A stretch of DNA of 64,000 nt from Chloroflexi bacterium OLB13. GTDB taxonomy: Bacteria; Chloroflexota; Anaerolineae; Aggregatilineales; Phototrophicaceae. The translations under genes were made by a program, and so were the position numbers. Below, one piece after another: positions 22,631-32,326 of the stretch (positions are counted from its first letter, which is position 1; every line of letters starts with the position of its first letter). The stretch is taken from assembly GCA_001567485.1 (NCBI GenBank), contig JZRA01000048.1, positions 1 to 64,000 of the forward strand, read 5' to 3'. Below the pieces are notes generated by a model. It had not been told where the DNA came from, did not search any database, and was given only the letters and a program-made list of their open reading frames with translations.

Positions 22631-23689
22631 CTATGCACCCGCGTTGTCAACGCGGTCTGCCACTACGATATACCGCTTATTGTTGACGCGGTAGGGGTAG
22701 CAGCTAATCAATGTCACCGTCGGCACCCCTTGATCGTCCATTACAAACGTATCGGTCGGATCGACAATTCGCGTCTCGCGCACACGGTAGACGAACGTGC
22801 GCGAATTGGTGCGAATTGTAAACTCGTCACCCACCTGCATCTGGTCGAGGTCACGGAACAGCTCGCCGTAGATGTCGTTATGGGCAGCTAGCACGACGTT
22901 ACCGGTCGCTGCCGCCGGATGCGCCCCGTTCTGCACTTGGCCCACGCCTTCCTTCAGGGCGTCCCAGTCCGTTCCTTGCACGATCGACTGATCGAGGTTC
23001 AAGCGGGGGATACTGATCGAGCGCGCTGTCTCCGGCGTCTCTGGCGGCCGTACGATGTTCACCGGGAACACCTGCTGCTGCACGGCGACGCGCAGGTGAG
23101 ACGGGACATCGTCAATGAATTCTTCGAGGTTGAAGCGCACCGTGTCGTCGGCTTCGATGACGTGCCCGCCGGGAAGCACATAATCCTCGATGCGGACGGT
23201 CAGGATCGACGTCGGTTCTGGCGTGGGGATACCCGCGCTGCGCTGTTGGTTCGCAAGTTCCTGCGCCGCGCGCGTCTCCTGCTCCAGCGCGTTGATCGAC
23301 ATAATCATGCCCGTGCCCAAGAACAGCAGTCCGGCAACCGCCACAATCTCCACCGCCAGCAGAATACGGTTGATGATGGTCTTGCGCTGGGCCGCGCGTT
23401 CAGGATCCTCAGGCGGGCGCTCAGCAAAGAGATCGTCCTCGAAGCGCGGCTCTGAGGTCTGCGGCGCTGGCCTCGGCGCGGGTGGCGGCTTCTGCGCTGG
23501 CGCAGATGCCTCTTGCTGGACAGACGCGCTTTGCGGCACGGCCTGCGCGGGTGCAGCCGCAGCGGGCATAACACGGCCGTCCTGCTTCAAGCGCTTCAGC
23601 CGCTGCATCCGCTGTTCGCGCTTACGGATCGCCAGAATGCGCTCTAGTTCTTCAATCGAGAGTTCGTCAACGGGGCGCCGATCCCGCAT
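22631..23689 (-). CDS. Sortase family protein with long cytoplasmic N-terminus
   Basis: 352 residues from the ATG at 23689. A basic coiled N-terminus (residues 1-40) and a Pro/Ala/Gln-rich linker (41-100) precede one membrane helix (108-131). The sortase catalytic domain (about 220-350) has His270 (VVLAAHND), Cys330 (TLISCYP) and Arg339 (NNKRYIV), the transpeptidase triad. The layout fits class D/E-type sortases, which join proteins to cell-wall or surface polymers. GAGG five bases before the ATG decides the start. An earlier ATG at 23722 lies inside a minus-strand TATAAT (23726-23721), which would be the promoter -10 box, so it is less likely. No LPXTG-type substrate is adjacent. Confidence 0.87.
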   Translation of the reverse strand: MRDRRPVDELSIEELERILAIRKREQRMQRLKRLKQDGRVMPAAAAPAQAVPQSASVQQEASAPAQKPPPAPRPAPQTSEPRFEDDLFAERPPEDPERAAQRKTIINRILLAVEIVAVAGLLFLGTGMIMSINALEQETRAAQELANQQRSAGIPTPEPTSILTVRIEDYVLPGGHVIEADDTVRFNLEEFIDDVPSHLRVAVQQQVFPVNIVRPPETPETARSISIPRLNLDQSIVQGTDWDALKEGVGQVQNGAHPAAATGNVVLAAHNDIYGELFRDLDQMQVGDEFTIRTNSRTFVYRVRETRIVDPTDTFVMDDQGVPTVTLISCYPYRVNNKRYIVVADRVDNAGA

Positions 23690-23838
23690 GGCATCCTCAA
23701 TCCGGTCATTCAACGGCGCCATTATAGCGGATACACAGGTTCCTATCCGTTGTAATCTGCCGGGATAGGTTAAGCGTACAGTAGAAAACGGCTGGCTGGC
23801 GTCCCGGTAGGCACACCAGCCAGCCTCATACAACGACC

Positions 23839-25581
23839 TTAGAAGTAGCTGGAAATGATGTCCAGCACCGCGCCGATGTTCGACGGATCACCGGACGCGA
23901 CTCGGGTCGCGCTGGCGCGGGCGATTGCGTTCAGCGCGTTGATGTCGGCATCGCTGCCATACGCGACCGGGATGACGATGACCGGGTTCACATCTTCTCG
24001 CGTCGCGCCGATCGCGCGCGTGGCGTCGGCCAGCGTGACGCCCTGTGTGCCGGTGTCCTGACCGTCGCTCAAGACCACCACAGCGCGTATACGATTCGCG
24101 TCGTCGACCGCCGACATCTGTTCGACGGCGCGCTGCACAGCGAGATACAGCTCGGTGCCGCCGTTAGCGCGCACGTTTCGGACTGCCGGAAGGATTTGAT
24201 TCAGGTTGCTCTCAAGCCGGTTCATCGGGATAACCTCGCGATAATCGTCGCTGAACACGGCCAGCCCAACGCGGTTATCAACCTCAAGCGCGTTGATAAA
24301 AGCCTCGGCCGCGGTGCGTGCCTGCGTGATCTTGTCGCCGTTCATCGAGCCGGAGACATCGATCACCAGCAGCACGTCGGCCTGCTTCTTCACAAACGAC
24401 CAACTCTGCTGAATCTCAGCGACGACTTCCGGATCAGGAACGTTCAGCACCTCAGGCGGGCCGTCGACGTCGATACCATTCTCAGGCACAAACGGGAACG
24501 CCAGCTCGACCGCCGGGTTAGCCGGGCGGAAGCCGTTCTCCATGACCAGCTCTTGCACCGGCTCGGTGAGCATGAAATCAACGAAGACACGCGCGGCCTC
24601 GCGCTGTTCAGCCGTGACCCAGTCCGCATTGACAATACCCATCGGGTGCTCGTGCCAGAACGTGCCTTCCTTCGGGTACAGCGCGACGAGCCGTTCGGGC
24701 GGCTTGAGCGACGTCTTACCCTGATTGATGTAGATCAGGTCGTTCTCTTCTAGCGCGACGAAATCGAGATACTCGGTTCCCTGCGCGATATATTCCTTGA
24801 ACTCCGTCGTCCGGCGCGAGTAATGGCGGATCAACTGTTCGATGTTACGCACGCCTTCCTGCACGTCTTCATCCCGTACTTCGTCAAGCGTGAGAACGCG
24901 GCCCGTGAACCCATTTGACCGCGCCGACGCGTAGAACTCGGCGATGAGGGTCGAAAGCGCCGTCGAACTCACATACGGGTCGGTATGCCCGTAGTACACC
25001 TGCCGGCGTGCGTTCGGCAGGCCGAAGTCCTGCCAACCGTTCGGGCTGTTCAACACTTGCAGCAGTTCTTCCCAGCCGACATCGTCATAGCCGACCGTCT
25101 GCCGGATCGCGTTCAGGCGGCTTTCCCAGATCGCCATGACGACCGGCGCGAGAGCGGTGGCTTGCGTGTCGGCTAGATCGAACAACTGCCGGCCGCTCTG
25201 GAAGTTCGCCAGCGCGAGCCAGTGGCTGACAGACGGCGAGAAGATCGTCGGGCGTTCGACGTTCTGGTTGTTGGGCGCGATGATGGCGTTGACGATCCCC
25301 TGCATCACCGTGCCGGACGAGCCGTCCTTACCCGTGATGTAGATTGGCTTTTCGCCCGACGCCAGCGCTGCGCCAGTGACCGGATTGCGCCCTTCCGCAT
25401 AGGCCGAGTTGAACTGATCCATCAGCGCCGGCATGAACGGCGCGAACTCCGGCGAATACACAATGGAGATCTGAACGGCGTTGGCAGGGATTCCGCCGGT
25501 GGATCCATTACCGCCCTGATCGCATCCGCTGAGGGCCGCGACTGCGAGCAGCATCACGAGCACTAATCGTTTGAATGACAT
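23839..25581 (-). CDS. Extracellular substrate-binding lipoprotein with VWA domain
   Basis: About 580 residues. A lipoprotein signal (MSFKRLVLVMLLAVAALSGC, lipobox LSGC) is followed by a family-1-like solute-binding fold (about 35-370; ISIVYSPEFAPFMPALMDQF; GKDGSSGTVMQGIVNAI). A von Willebrand factor A domain fills about residues 400-580. Its MIDAS motif DVSGSM lies near residue 407, with Thr in GGTELY and Asp in LSDGQD completing the metal site. Such double-domain proteins are frequent in Chloroflexota and may display ligand- or protein-binding at the cell surface. The ATG at 25581 is preceded by AAGGAG. It follows a second binding protein by 35 bases. No permease genes adjoin. Confidence 0.85.
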   Translation of the reverse strand: MSFKRLVLVMLLAVAALSGCDQGGNGSTGGIPANAVQISIVYSPEFAPFMPALMDQFNSAYAEGRNPVTGAALASGEKPIYITGKDGSSGTVMQGIVNAIIAPNNQNVERPTIFSPSVSHWLALANFQSGRQLFDLADTQATALAPVVMAIWESRLNAIRQTVGYDDVGWEELLQVLNSPNGWQDFGLPNARRQVYYGHTDPYVSSTALSTLIAEFYASARSNGFTGRVLTLDEVRDEDVQEGVRNIEQLIRHYSRRTTEFKEYIAQGTEYLDFVALEENDLIYINQGKTSLKPPERLVALYPKEGTFWHEHPMGIVNADWVTAEQREAARVFVDFMLTEPVQELVMENGFRPANPAVELAFPFVPENGIDVDGPPEVLNVPDPEVVAEIQQSWSFVKKQADVLLVIDVSGSMNGDKITQARTAAEAFINALEVDNRVGLAVFSDDYREVIPMNRLESNLNQILPAVRNVRANGGTELYLAVQRAVEQMSAVDDANRIRAVVVLSDGQDTGTQGVTLADATRAIGATREDVNPVIVIPVAYGSDADINALNAIARASATRVASGDPSNIGAVLDIISSYF

Positions 25582-25616
25582 ACGAAGACTCCTTCGAGAA
25601 CCGACCGTGGAAGCGG

Positions 25617-26666
25617 CTAGCCACCGTTGCTGAGTATCCATTGGCGCAGGCCGCTGATGGCAGAGGACTGCGGAATCTGTACCGCCTGAAGACCGGGAAG
25701 CTGGCGCATGATCCCGTAGGGTTCCGCCGCGACGAATTTTGCGGATGTCTCAGGCGGTTCACCGAGCGCGGGCCGCAGGCCGTAGCTGTCGAGCGCGCGC
25801 TGCTGTGCGTCACCCAGCAGGTATGACGCGAACGCCTGCGATGCGGCGCGCTCGTCGCCGGTGGTCTGTGCGCTCGATAACGTGATATACGGAAAATCGA
25901 ACATCACCGGGTAATTAGGATACGCGAACTCCGGTGTATATGTGCGCGCAAGCACGTCCAGCGAGGCCAGCCACTGGCTTTCCGGCCCGATAGCGACATC
26001 GACGGTGCGCCCCTGCGGCCCGGCGACATACGTCGCGACATCGTTCGGGATGGTGTTGAAGTTCGGCACACTGTCGATGACCGGCTTCAACCAATCGCGC
26101 ATCGCTTTATCATTCAACTGCGTATCGGTCAACACGCCCGAATCGTGGAAATGCGCCGCGCCGGAAACTACCACGGCGAATCCCTGCACCGAAAGCGAAG
26201 GCGAAGAAAACGCGACATTGATCCGATTCGACCCCGCCGCTTCTTGTACACCATCCCACGTCAGGGCGGAGATCGCGCTGTCCTCAGACGCATCGCGCAT
26301 CCACACCAACGGCGTGCGCGCCAGCGACAGCGCCTCGGTGTTCGCCGTCACAGCCATGCGAATGCCAGCAGCAAACCCCGACCACGCCGGAATCCAGCCA
26401 TCCGGGTGATTGCTCGATGACCACGGCTCGTTGAGAATCTGCATCCCCGGCGCGACGATGACGTTGACGCGAACGGGCCGGCCCACGCCAACGGTCACGC
26501 CAGACGTGTTGAATTCGAGCGCCGCGGCACGAAGCCACAACTCCGCCAGCGGATCGACGGCGACGTCAATTTCCACCGGCGGCTGGCTGCGCAGCAGTGT
26601 GGTCGCTGCTACGAGCGCCGCGGCGATCAACACAAATAGGATGATGAAAATGGTTCCGCGCCGCAT
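25617..26666 (-). CDS. Extracellular substrate-binding protein
   Basis: About 349 residues. An N-terminal hydrophobic segment (GTIFIILFVLIAAALVAATTLL) acts as an uncleaved anchor or signal peptide. The remainder is a binding-protein fold (DPLAELWLRAAALEFN; NVAFSSPSLSVQGFAVVVSG; FASYLLGDAQQRALDSYGLRP) similar to the solute-binding half of the next gene but without a VWA domain. The ATG at 26666 follows AAAGGGGAAAAG, and residues before it in the open frame are not signal-like. It is transcribed first in the pair. The ligand is unknown. Confidence 0.8.
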   Translation of the reverse strand: MRRGTIFIILFVLIAAALVAATTLLRSQPPVEIDVAVDPLAELWLRAAALEFNTSGVTVGVGRPVRVNVIVAPGMQILNEPWSSSNHPDGWIPAWSGFAAGIRMAVTANTEALSLARTPLVWMRDASEDSAISALTWDGVQEAAGSNRINVAFSSPSLSVQGFAVVVSGAAHFHDSGVLTDTQLNDKAMRDWLKPVIDSVPNFNTIPNDVATYVAGPQGRTVDVAIGPESQWLASLDVLARTYTPEFAYPNYPVMFDFPYITLSSAQTTGDERAASQAFASYLLGDAQQRALDSYGLRPALGEPPETSAKFVAAEPYGIMRQLPGLQAVQIPQSSAISGLRQWILSNGG

Positions 26667-26700
26667 CTTTTCCCCTTTGCGTTCCGCGCATACCGACTCA

Positions 26701-26728
26701 ACTATACAGGGAATACGGCGCGGCACAA
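26701..26728 (-). promoter_or_regulatory. Candidate promoter for the binding-protein pair
   Basis: On the minus strand, TTGTGC (26728-26723) and TATAGT (26706-26701) are separated by 16 bases, 35 bases before the ATG at 26666. Confidence 0.5.
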
Positions 26729-27668: not shown

Positions 27669-27730
27669 GCGTGTTCCACTCATCGGGACATGCGATAATA
27701 CGCGGCGGTCTCCACGGTCACGCAAGGGCC

Positions 27731-28197
27731 GCACCCATCCCCACCCTGACGGCTCAGATTGGCCTCAAGGCGCTGCGTGCGATCCAGCGTGAGCGATCCG
27801 TCATGGCCGCGCTCCCGGTCATGCGTGATGAACTCAGAGACATCTTCCGTATCAATGTGCCCGGTTTCAATCCGGTTGTGCTTTCCGGCCCCGAAGCGTG
27901 CCGGTGGGTGTTGGGCGAGCAGCGCGAAAACTTGCTGTGGCGCATCGACACCGACCCGATCACGCAGCTGCTCGACCCGGAACGATTCGCCCCCGGAACC
28001 GCGATTGCTCCGTATTCATACCTTCCGTTCGGCGGGGGAACACGCAGCTGCATCGGGGCGAACTTCGCGCAGATCGAGGCCCGTGTGCTGCAGCGGTTTG
28101 ACGTGAGCGCACAGCTGGCTCAGCGGTATATCCCGCGACCATCGAGCCACGTCCCGGCGTGCCGATGATCGTTAAGCGGCGCTCGTCCAGCCCATAA
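27731..28197 (+). pseudogene. Cytochrome P450 relic: N- and C-terminal ends joined, middle missing
   Basis: The reading frame holds a P450-like N-terminus (LKALRAIQRERSVMAALPVM, then PGFNPVVLSGPEACRWVL and ENLLWRIDTDPITQLL). It jumps directly to a P450 C-terminus (DPERFAPG, then YSYLPFGGGTRSCIGANFA) with the haem-ligand cysteine. About 300 residues of a normal ~450-residue P450, including the I-helix and ExxR motif, are absent. After QRFDVSAQLAQ the frame shifts: the expected ending TIEPRPGVPMIVKRR is encoded in another frame up to a TAA at 28195-28197. No start codon with a ribosome site is seen. It cannot encode a working enzyme. The 3' end overlaps the tail of the convergent fusion gene. 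Confidence 0.82.
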
Positions 28198-31100
28198 GCT
28201 GTACGGCCCGCCGTGGCAGCACCGCGCTGAGCCGTTCCAGTTCGTCCGCATCGAACGGATGGAGCAGCACGAACGCAGCGAGGTACGCCGCCCCGCCTAT
28301 GATGACCGCCAGCAGCAGCGGAATAACAGCGGCCGCCACGACGGTCACGATCAGCATGACGGCAGCAGCGGCATACAGCTTCCACAGCAGATCCAGCCAA
28401 CCGACCTTTCCGATTCCGGTTTGCATCAGGCGCGCGAAATACACGCACAACACAAGCTCGGACGCAATCGTGGTCAGCGCCGCGGCTTGATAGCTGTACG
28501 CCGGAATCAAGAGCATGTTCGTGACGATGTTGAACATGCACGCCGCGGCGAACGCACGCGTCACCCGGCGCTGCAAGTCCAGCGCAACCAGCGCATACTG
28601 CGTCAGGCTGTTCATCCAGCCGATGGGGATGCTCCACACCATGATCTGCAACGCGATCTGCCCATCGGGGAGATAGGCTGATCCGCCCAACAGCCACGTC
28701 AATGGCTCGGCCAGCAGGGTGAATACGACGGCGAAGGGCAGCGCGATCCCCACCAGCAGCTTGATGCTCATCCGGTAGGTCGTGCGCAAGGCAGCGCGGT
28801 CGTCGGCGGCCTGACGGCTCATCGTCGCCATCAGCGCCTGCGTGTAGAACGCTGGCACGACATTGATCGCCAGCAGCCACGAGTACGCCACGCGGTACAG
28901 CCCGACGATTCGCTCACCCTTCATCGCTTCGAGGATGACGATGTCGATCTGGAAAAACACGGTGGCGAGGAAGTGGTTGAGCATCAGCGGCCAGCTGTGG
29001 CCGGCCATCGAACGCACCACAGTCAGGTCAGGCCGCGCGCCACGAGTCGTCCGCAGGATATCGCGCGCGCCCCACAGCAGCACGCCCAGCGTGATCAAAT
29101 TGGTGACGATGCTGACGGCGGCCAGCCCAACGATCCCCCAGCCCACCATTAGCGCGATCACGCCACCAGTCACTTTGCTGATCGTCGTGAGCGATGTCAC
29201 CATCGCCGGATACTCGGCGCGGTCGAACGCATAGTACAGCGAAGTCAGCCCTTTGCTGAAGCTGCCGGGGATCAACCCGACGTAGAACAGCGCGATCGTG
29301 AGCAGGACGTCACCACTCAACGGATCGGACAGCGCCTGCCGTATCAAGAGAAACGCCAGCAGCAGCGGGATCGCCGCGCCAGCCAGAATCAGCCGGAACA
29401 ACGTCGTGCCGGAAAACAGCGCCGCCGCCTGCTCGCGCAGTCGTCCCGCCTCGCGGATCAGGTACACGTCGAGTCCGAAGTTGGTGAAGATGTCGAACCA
29501 GCCAAAGATCACGATGGCGTAGTAGTATTCGCCTGCGCGCTCCGGCCCAAGGATGCGGAACATCACCGACGCAAAGGCGAAGTCGATCCCCCGATTGAAC
29601 AGGTTGAGCATAATCGGCGCGACGGTATTGCGCATCAGCCGCGTGCCACCGGCGTCAGGACGGCGATCGAACAACGCGCGCCACGCCCAAACACCCCCCA
29701 TCAGGAGGGTGAGTGCAACGCCGATCACCGAGCCGAACGCGCCGATCTGGAAGCTGGACGGGCTGTAGATCAGCCGTACGTCGATCGGCGAGTCCGCATT
29801 CAACGAGACGCCGATAAAGTTCTCGAACACGCGCCCGACCGGCACTTCGCGTTCTTCGGTTTCCGGCGCGCCGCTAGGCCGCACAAACGCCTTCCACCCC
29901 GCCGCGTAAGTTTCGCTAACGAACAGCAGCGCATCCCCGTCCGGATCGACGGCGTACACCCGTTCGCGCCCGCTGTCAGAGACGAGACGCGCCTCGTTTC
30001 CGGTGAACAGCGCCGGGTCAAGCGGCTGATCGAGCGTGATGTCAGCGGAATCTGGCGGCAGCACCGCCGCAAGCGGCAGCGCAGACTCGTTCTCATAAAT
30101 CCGTACTGCGCGGTCGCTGTATACCTCCGTCCACCCCGCCGCGTTAAGCTCGGTATCGAGGTGCATCACGAGATAGCGCACACCCAGCAGTTGAAAGCGC
30201 GCGCTGTTGAGGATCGCGGGGATGTCCATCCACCCATACAGCGCGGAAATACGGTTAAAGTCGAGCTGAGACTGTGGATACGCCGCACGCATATACGCGA
30301 CGAACTGTGACGAGATGATACTGTCATAGCCACGCACGTCGCGCAGGCCGTCGCGCAGGGTCATATTGGCTTGCAAGATGTCGCGCTGGCCGTCCCGATT
30401 GAGTGTCAGGTACCGGCCGTCGTCTCCGTGCTCGATCAGGTAGTGCAGCGCCGGAGGGCGATACTCCAACAGCGCCGGATCACTGGCGGCGTTGAACCCC
30501 CACGACGCCAGCATCAGATCGGCCGCGAGCAGCGCAATCGCGCCGACCGTGACAGGCCGAACGCGGTCAATATCCCCGAACAGCCGCAGCAGCACCCACC
30601 CGCTGCCAACGGTCACGACAGCGAGGATCAGCACGTTAGGCGCTTGGTAGCTGAAGAACATCGCCATATCGCTGAACGCGGCGCTGGCTTTCTCCATGCC
30701 CATGACGATCGGCTCAACATGCGACGCCCACAGATCAAACGTCAAGCGCGCCACCAGCAGCCCTAGCGCCAGCACCGCGCCCGCCCCGATCAGCGTCCGG
30801 CCCATCGCACGCGCCCGCGCACGATTCTGAGCGACGGCATCAGCGCCGAACGCAGCCAGCACGGCGACGGCGACGGTCAACCCGTAAATCCAGCGAAACG
30901 GCGTATTGAGCTGATTGATCCCCGGCAGCACGTACACCGCGGCATACGTCGGCAGGCCAAACATGAACGTCAGGCTCGCGATACCCAGCACGGCGAAGAT
31001 CAGCCGGTAAGGCGGGCGCCCTGTCTGTCGCGGCGCGAGAATCGCGAATACCGCAAGCGCCAGTGGCAGTATGCCAACGTAGAGCGCGCTTTCGACGTAG

Positions 31101-32143
31101 TTCTTGATCCCCCAGTCGATGACCTGCAAGCCGTCAGGTTGGGTGAGCGCAGGCTGCCACCCTCCGCCGAACAGGTCAAAATAGGCGTGATGCGCCGGGC
31201 TGCCGTAGAAATTCGGCAGGAGGAACTGGACGAGATCACGCGCCGGATGCGCATAGCTCAACACCTGTTCAAGACTGCTGCGTTCGGCGCGCCAGTTGGT
31301 CTGCACGAACTCAACCAGCGGGACAAGCTGCACCGCGCTCAACAGCAAGCCCACGGCGACCATGCCGAGCAGCCACCCTGCCTTACCCGCCACAGACAGG
31401 ATCGGTTGACGGGCCAACAGCAGTCCCAACAGCCGCGCACCGGCGAAATAACCGGCGATCAACAGCGTATAGATCGTCAGTTCGGCGTGCCCGCTGAGGA
31501 CGCTGCACCCGACCGCCAGCGCGCCGACTGCGGCCCAAAGCGGCGCAGCGGTTCGCCCCGCGAGCGTCCTCCCGCGGAGGATGAACTCGACCGCCAGCAG
31601 AATCAGCGGCAGCCAGATCGCCGCGCCGATAATCATCGGGAACACCGCGCTTGTGACCAGCATCGCGCACAGCTGATATGTGATCGCGGCGAGGACGGCG
31701 GCGAACCGGCTTGTCCCTAGCGCGCGCACGAATCCGAACATGAACACGCCGGCCAGCCACAGGTGGATCACGGTGAACCAGCCATACGCGGCCGCCAGCG
31801 GCAGGATCACGTACAGCACGCCGAGCGGATACAACACCTGCTGCTGCCCCGCGGCAAGGAACGGGATACCGGCGAACTGATAGGGGTTCCACAGCGGGAT
31901 TTCGCCGTCTGCGAACTGCTGGCGCGTGAACGTTTTCCACTGCATATTCTGCAGGACGAGATCGCTCAGCAGATGATTATGCGGGCGATCGGGCGCGCCG
32001 GCCTCATCACGGTACGTATAGAACGGCTCCCACTGATACAGGTTCTCGGCAGGCAGCAGCGTCTTTCCGCCCATCGTTTGCGGCCAGAACAGAATCAGCG
32101 GCAGAAAGAACAGCAGCGCGATGATCGGCAGATCGCGTCGCAT
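28172..32143 (-). CDS. YfhO-like membrane protein fused to a Wzx-type flippase
   Basis: About 1323 residues, with two full membrane proteins in one frame. Residues 1 to ~830 are YfhO-like: MRRDLPIIALLFFLPLILFWP, the WNPYQFAGIPFLA motif, about a dozen helices (GT-C topology), and a soluble extracytoplasmic region (about 560-790). From about residue 836 (MRNTVAPIMLNLFNRGIDFA) there is a polysaccharide-type flippase of the MOP superfamily with about 12-14 helices (FGWFDIFTNFGLDVYLIREAGRLR). YfhO-type proteins glycosylate envelope polymers from lipid-linked sugars, and Wzx proteins flip lipid-linked glycans, so the fusion may couple the two steps; this is inference. The ATG at 32143 follows AAGGG and begins the first helix. 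The internal Met at 29636 could once have been a separate start. Confidence 0.85.
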   Translation of the reverse strand: MRRDLPIIALLFFLPLILFWPQTMGGKTLLPAENLYQWEPFYTYRDEAGAPDRPHNHLLSDLVLQNMQWKTFTRQQFADGEIPLWNPYQFAGIPFLAAGQQQVLYPLGVLYVILPLAAAYGWFTVIHLWLAGVFMFGFVRALGTSRFAAVLAAITYQLCAMLVTSAVFPMIIGAAIWLPLILLAVEFILRGRTLAGRTAAPLWAAVGALAVGCSVLSGHAELTIYTLLIAGYFAGARLLGLLLARQPILSVAGKAGWLLGMVAVGLLLSAVQLVPLVEFVQTNWRAERSSLEQVLSYAHPARDLVQFLLPNFYGSPAHHAYFDLFGGGWQPALTQPDGLQVIDWGIKNYVESALYVGILPLALAVFAILAPRQTGRPPYRLIFAVLGIASLTFMFGLPTYAAVYVLPGINQLNTPFRWIYGLTVAVAVLAAFGADAVAQNRARARAMGRTLIGAGAVLALGLLVARLTFDLWASHVEPIVMGMEKASAAFSDMAMFFSYQAPNVLILAVVTVGSGWVLLRLFGDIDRVRPVTVGAIALLAADLMLASWGFNAASDPALLEYRPPALHYLIEHGDDGRYLTLNRDGQRDILQANMTLRDGLRDVRGYDSIISSQFVAYMRAAYPQSQLDFNRISALYGWMDIPAILNSARFQLLGVRYLVMHLDTELNAAGWTEVYSDRAVRIYENESALPLAAVLPPDSADITLDQPLDPALFTGNEARLVSDSGRERVYAVDPDGDALLFVSETYAAGWKAFVRPSGAPETEEREVPVGRVFENFIGVSLNADSPIDVRLIYSPSSFQIGAFGSVIGVALTLLMGGVWAWRALFDRRPDAGGTRLMRNTVAPIMLNLFNRGIDFAFASVMFRILGPERAGEYYYAIVIFGWFDIFTNFGLDVYLIREAGRLREQAAALFSGTTLFRLILAGAAIPLLLAFLLIRQALSDPLSGDVLLTIALFYVGLIPGSFSKGLTSLYYAFDRAEYPAMVTSLTTISKVTGGVIALMVGWGIVGLAAVSIVTNLITLGVLLWGARDILRTTRGARPDLTVVRSMAGHSWPLMLNHFLATVFFQIDIVILEAMKGERIVGLYRVAYSWLLAINVVPAFYTQALMATMSRQAADDRAALRTTYRMSIKLLVGIALPFAVVFTLLAEPLTWLLGGSAYLPDGQIALQIMVWSIPIGWMNSLTQYALVALDLQRRVTRAFAAACMFNIVTNMLLIPAYSYQAAALTTIASELVLCVYFARLMQTGIGKVGWLDLLWKLYAAAAVMLIVTVVAAAVIPLLLAVIIGGAAYLAAFVLLHPFDADELERLSAVLPRRAVQLMGWTSAA

Positions 32144-32326
32144 GAAAATCCCTTGAACGGTGCGCCAGACGCCGCAAGGGTACATCGTGCCAGCGTTGAT
32201 CCATAGTGCAACTTTGATACAAGCGCCAACGCGAACAGCCCACCCGTATTCAATCCGCTGTCAAGCCGCAATTCACGGAATGGGTTCAGCGAGAAATCGC
32301 GACATTGGTAATAAGTGGACATACAG

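Follow-up and report, generated by a model that had tools for sequence, protein, structure and literature searches.

How one gene comes to encode both a YfhO-type GT-C glycosyltransferase and a Wzx-type flippase, and what such a protein would do, is the question raised by this locus in a 64-kb stretch of DNA from Chloroflexi bacterium OLB13 (the whole stretch analysed, here called the window). The ORF list and translation give a single uninterrupted open reading frame of 1323 aa plus stop on the reverse strand, starting with an ATG at 32143; an upstream ATG at 32185 is a possible alternative start that would extend the gene to 28172-32185 (Table 1). YfhO (PF09586) is matched in the first half at 64.0 bits against a Pfam curated cut-off of 28.5, and Polysacc_synt (PF01943) is matched at residues 837-1110 at 88.3 bits against a cut-off of 28.2. 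The latter is the best-matching Pfam family of the protein, and PF13440 is also matched in the flippase half; PF03023 (MurJ) is absent from the protein's Pfam matches. The NCBIfam relatives, among them HfsF, Wzx_EPS and PgfM1, all fall below threshold, and no relative in the PDB was found by sequence alone. The frame is open from ATG to stop, with no stop at the domain junction and an even GC content across it. The preliminary description, which reported two complete membrane domains in one frame and no stop between them, therefore holds on both points. Its placement of the junction near 29636 was close and is adjusted by the AlphaFold2 helix boundaries, in which the last YfhO helix runs to about residue 825 and the flippase half opens with a helix from residue 832, to about 29650-29668. 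Topology in both protein families suggests that the linker between these helices lies on the cytoplasmic side.

Table 1. Features of the fused gene and of its immediate surroundings in the window
Feature	Position	Strand	Basis
Fused YfhO-type GT-C / MOP flippase	28172..32143	-	ORF, translation, Pfam, full-length orthologs
GT-C half, aa 1-825	29669..32143	-	PF09586, AlphaFold2, Foldseek ArnT 5f15, AftD 6wbx
First extracytoplasmic loop region, aa 26-106	31826..32068	-	Conservation
C-terminal extracytoplasmic domain of GT-C half, about aa 575-795	within 29669..32143	-	AlphaFold2
Last transmembrane helix of GT-C half, aa 796-825	within 29669..32143	-	AlphaFold2
Junction: short predicted cytoplasmic linker, aa 826-831	29651..29668	-	AlphaFold2 secondary structure
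Wzx/MurJ-type MOP flippase half, aa 832-1323	28175..29650	-	PF01943, PF13440, AlphaFold2, MurJ/WzxE matches
Cytochrome P450 remnant	27671..28168	+	Profile 384-437 of 462
Sortase gene, solute-binding/VWA chimera, solute-binding-like protein	22631..26726	-	

The structure was predicted with AlphaFold2 as two overlapping pieces, residues 1-1200 (pLDDT 93.1, pTM 0.92) and residues 784-1323 (pLDDT 93.3, pTM 0.91). To judge from a pTM this high across the two halves, they have a defined relative arrangement in the model, which stops at residue 1200; structure prediction, named beforehand as a check on the interface, thus returned a confident single unit over residues 1-1200. The model of the GT-C half resembles ArnT (5f15; Foldseek E 1.2e-4) and, over the range 1-820, AftD (6wbx; Z 20.8, 5.3 A, 559 residues). 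For the flippase half, in which Arg, Asn and Pro positions are invariant, a MOP fold is predicted over the full length, and its model matches MurJ (6nc6; Z 33.9, 3.2 A, 448 residues) and WzxE (9g9n; Z 33.5, 3.0 A, 400 residues) at 11-16 % identity in the structural alignments.

Conservation extends over the whole chain. The OLB13 protein and 73 fused homologs (74 full-length sequences) align with conserved residues in both halves, which argues that the fusion is more than chance. Among 87 sequences, D61, E221, E351, R285, K347, R417 and R577 are invariant in the GT-C half, as are R863, R897 and R917 in the flippase half; positions 61, 221 and 351 are acidic in 87/87, and position 33 is D or E in all of them. 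The first extracytoplasmic loop region is among the most conserved stretches, with D61, N56, N66, W85 and P87 invariant. By analogy with GT-C enzymes in general, the loop acids at position 33 and D61 are presumed to be the catalytic acids.

The domain order was searched for in relatives and is found fused across Anaerolineae and in several other Chloroflexota lineages. In the source genome and 60 relatives, 60 of the 61 genomes have matches, most of them single full-length frames about 1300-1470 codons long with 44-57 % identity, whereas the separate YfhO and Wzx paralogs that these genomes contain reach only about 23-36 %. A scan of the genomes of 84,980 species with patterns derived from the OLB13 fused protein gave 78 loci, nearly all of them full-length fusions if the contig extends far enough, and all labelled Chloroflexota or Anaerolineae except L101. 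This Bacteroidetes-labelled contig has a fused gene of 48 % identity, whose neighbours are common to Chloroflexota loci, and is probably misbinned. A class survey of 199 Anaerolineae genomes (completeness at least 80 %) found matches in 181, mostly full-length fused; a hand count of the rows listed gives about 130 genomes with an open frame of at least 1300 aa at the match, and the fusion is absent from families f33 and f55. Full-length fusions at 35-39 % identity also occur beyond the class (G345, G323, G309, G374, G330, G405, G252, G259 and others). Judged from these sequence comparisons, the fused protein is ancient and nearly universal in Anaerolineae (Chloroflexota).

Clustering of gene neighbours identified a DPM1-like GT2 gene that adjoins the fused gene in distant lineages. 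In the class-wide tblastn search, at least 51 genomes from 24 families carry this GT2 immediately upstream of the fused gene, in the same orientation and no more than 400 nt away. The counts combine positions from two tables, were checked by script and rest on tblastn positions because the greedy ORF caller missed some GT2 genes. The same linkage is seen in the more distant lineages G345, G252, G309, G262 and G249, and 8 of 25 ORF pairs have a 4-nt overlap between GT2 and fusion, an arrangement typical of translational coupling. The partner GT2s are short proteins of about 240-260 aa with no evident membrane part and, going by the activity of their relatives, would be of the polyprenyl-phosphate-sugar synthase type. 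The OLB13 genome holds its copy on another contig (G000:C131:8703-9443, L147), unlinked to the fusion; a co-occurring GT2 elsewhere in this genome had been suggested as something to look for. It is a Glycos_transf_2 protein of 251 aa, 57 % identical to the linked GT2 used as query, is placed among the linked GT2s in a tree with moderate branch supports, and has dolichol-P-mannose synthase as its best solved relative (5mlz, E 1.9e-30). The two genes are apart in the family of the source genome. Strict co-occurrence was considered and rejected: families f33 and f55 have the GT2 but lack the fusion, and in f47 the fusion is present and no GT2 was matched at the threshold of E 1e-40. The proposal that the protein could act as a stand-alone glycosylation machine is contradicted by the GT2 found directly upstream in at least 24 families.

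Several loci show further features around these glycosyltransferase genes. Stand-alone YfhO paralogs are accompanied by a second GT2 paralog: runs of consecutive stand-alone YfhO-like and other large membrane genes are found at L219-L222, with a second DPM1-like GT2 paralog near the YfhO-like gene runs at L219-L221. At L149, L152, L153 and L102, a response-regulator-like gene directly precedes the DPM1-like GT2, and at the first three of these a 211-213 aa protein precedes the response-regulator-like gene. At L102 the pair is followed by the fused gene, which family f33 lacks.

Many Chloroflexota genomes outside Anaerolineae have only a stand-alone flippase, about 525-560 aa long and 31-39 % identical to the C-terminal half, and no recognisable YfhO gene lies directly beside it among the flippase-bearing neighbourhoods read. 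In a quick tree of the flippase half, whose deepest forks are open, stand-alone and fused sequences interleave, and at least three changes are forced by the starred branches; stand-alone L129 is sister to fused L166 with a support of 99, both belonging to family f62. A profile built from the final YfhO helix and the linker of fused proteins is matched by the N-terminal extensions of the stand-alone flippases L123, L122, L124 and L133, at 32.1, 28.3, 25.7 and 15.1 bits respectively; none of 420 control segments scores above 6.8 bits. Stand-alone YfhO proteins end in a recognisably similar segment and helix (4 of 12 score 10.6-15.3 bits), so this helix belongs to YfhO. Since stand-alone flippases in some families retain it as a scar, fusion probably preceded fission. 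A fused ancestor whose YfhO part was later lost would be the simplest reading for families f68 and f105; the converse, a flippase that brought an extra helix and displaced the end of YfhO when the two fused, is less likely. Family f62, in which fused genes also occur, includes G389, where the flippase half alone comes about 130 nt after the GT2 (L229:2024-4346) and the YfhO part is gone; this arrangement ties the GT2 to the flippase. A pair of separate, adjacent genes in related genomes had been named as the mark of a recent read-through; instead, relatives are fused class-wide, and some unfused flippases look like later fissions. These scars provide a natural experiment on how the flippase half acts by itself.

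In at least 24 families the gene comes immediately after a DPM1-like GT2, so the fusion is interpreted as two parts of a three-part system. In the known scheme, a GT2 makes a polyprenyl-P-sugar inside, a flippase turns it over and a GT-C enzyme transfers the sugar outside (PMC8035078). Applied here, the DPM1-like GT2 would load one sugar onto polyprenyl phosphate on the inner side of the membrane, and the C-terminal MOP flippase half would turn the polyprenyl-P-sugar over. The N-terminal YfhO-type GT-C half, with its active loop outside, would then move the sugar from the lipid to an acceptor, which may be a surface polymer, a glycolipid or a protein. On balance, the fused protein probably is such a single-chain flip-and-transfer unit of a three-component transmembrane glycosylation system, working with the partner GT2. 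The preliminary description's coupling of lipid-linked sugar flipping with sugar transfer is graded likely. Against this reading, MOP flippases are known mostly for diphosphate-linked oligosaccharides, GT2 and fusion are only loosely coupled, and the two genes are separate in the family of the source genome. Direct hand-over of the flipped sugar between the halves is plausible. A specific version, in which the MOP flippase passes the polyprenyl-P-sugar straight to the GT-C site of the same chain with no release into the membrane, fed by a co-transcribed DPM1-like synthase, is put forward tentatively, as a possibility with the chances against it; if true, it would define a conserved envelope glycan of Chloroflexota.

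The pairing of flippases with glycosyltransferases is usually guessed, and the fusion states it outright. Kept through deep divergence and paired with a GT2, it serves as a natural 'Rosetta stone' for the cooperation of MOP flippases with YfhO-type enzymes, and one chain offers flipping and transfer for measurement together. Little is known of the cell surface of Anaerolineae, and the fusion also suggests that their envelope carries a conserved modification.

Comparison with known systems shows what is shared and what differs. CsbB/GtcA/YfhO of Firmicutes (PMC5836110, PMC7389260, PMC8035078) likewise combines a GT2 partner, a flippase and a YfhO-type GT-C that would use polyprenyl-P-sugar outside; there, the flippase is a small GtrA-type protein from a separate gene, whereas here it is of the MOP (Wzx/MurJ) type and joined to the YfhO half, with a short DPM1-like protein as the GT2. 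In Streptococcus pyogenes, a GT2, a Wzx-type flippase and a GT-C acting on one lipid-linked sugar have been proposed for GacI/GacJ/GacK/GacL (PMC8035078), so calling the fusion an undescribed system was too strong. The Gac genes are separate and GacL is classed as PMT-2, whereas the GT-C of the fusion is YfhO and shares its chain with the flippase, and no polymer cluster lies near the fusion in the window. MurJ and WzxE share their fold with most of the C-terminal half (Z about 33) and are both stand-alone; their known substrates are lipid II and lipid III. ArnT, which was solved with undecaprenyl phosphate, and AftD match the N-terminal half in fold and have no flippase domain, and the sequence family of the fusion is YfhO. 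Dolichol-P-mannose synthase 5mlz has 374 aa against 251 aa for the partner GT2 and carries an added membrane part; in the fusion system, the flippase sits in a gene other than that of the GT2. The kind of system is therefore already known from GacI/GacK/GacL and CsbB/GtcA/YfhO, and the apparently new elements are the fusion, its class-wide conservation, the GT2 linkage and the fission scars. No description of these four was found in the open-licence papers searched, where YfhO in Chloroflexi, a Wzx-Wzy fusion, Anaerolineae flippases and a GT-C with a flippase domain also gave no hits.

Among the alternatives, the one that survives best reassigns the substrate of the flippase half. It would move the acceptor, a polyprenyl-diphosphate-linked oligosaccharide or polymer unit, to which the GT-C half would add a sugar during its emergence, while a GtrA-type protein flips the GT2 product. 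The solved relatives MurJ and WzxE both flip diphosphate-linked glycans, and in some other lineages (L162-L167) fused genes lie near further GT2s and large membrane genes that are GT-C-like by eye. GtrA homologs are present in 35 of 41 genomes, OLB13 included (G000:C37), so another protein could flip the GT2 product; for the same reason, absence of GtrA is unusable as support for the MOP half. Against this alternative, the other six of the 41 genomes have no GtrA match, G389 keeps GT2 and flippase together with the YfhO part gone, and the window has no polymer cluster near the gene. At the fused locus itself, the flippase is of the MOP type and not of the GtrA type. The usual flippase in such systems is GtrA-type, with Wzx-type also admitted, as proposed for GacK (PMC8035078), and in Listeria a Wzx homolog is dispensable and the GtrA-type GtcA is required (PMC7389260). 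Given these precedents, the single-chain flip-and-transfer unit is retained as the best explanation, at somewhat better than even odds, and flipping of the acceptor is taken to be rather unlikely, at about one chance in four.

The flippase-like half could also be a structural or regulatory module, for example for recognition of an acceptor or lipid carrier, that has lost transport. Nothing direct favours this; the complete MOP fold with its invariant positions speaks against it, and survival of the flippase alone where the YfhO half was seemingly lost argues for a function of its own, which makes such a module improbable. Still less probable is an extra flippase for lipid II or another peptidoglycan precursor with an attached glycan-modifying domain. 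Its fold is close to MurJ and it is near-universal in the class, but clear MurJ homologs, usually several per genome, occur in 41/41 genomes including OLB13, PF03023 is missing from the Pfam scan, and the linkage is to a DPM1-like GT2 and not to mur genes. Replacement of the lipid II flippase is rejected in view of the MurJ homologs in all genomes checked. That two genes were merged by accidental read-through or by an annotation artefact has no supporting evidence and is ruled out for practical purposes by the single frame kept across the class and beyond, the only split loci of the 78 (L079 and L099) being broken elsewhere than at the domain junction.

In the window, the neighbours of the fused gene are a sortase, a VWA/solute-binding protein, Bax1-I, a P450 remnant, SOR/SNZ (PdxS), PAPS reductase and an ABC transporter; none is a glycan gene, in agreement with the earlier remark that no polymer cluster is adjacent. 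The cytochrome P450 remnant is a C-terminal end only and abuts the 3' end of the fused gene, and the sortase gene stands in a row with a solute-binding/VWA chimera and a solute-binding-like protein. In many lineages (L068, L078, L080-L083, L085, L087, L154 and L155), the fused gene is followed on the same strand by a tRNA-synthetase-like gene with an OB-fold start, of the asparaginyl type by eye.
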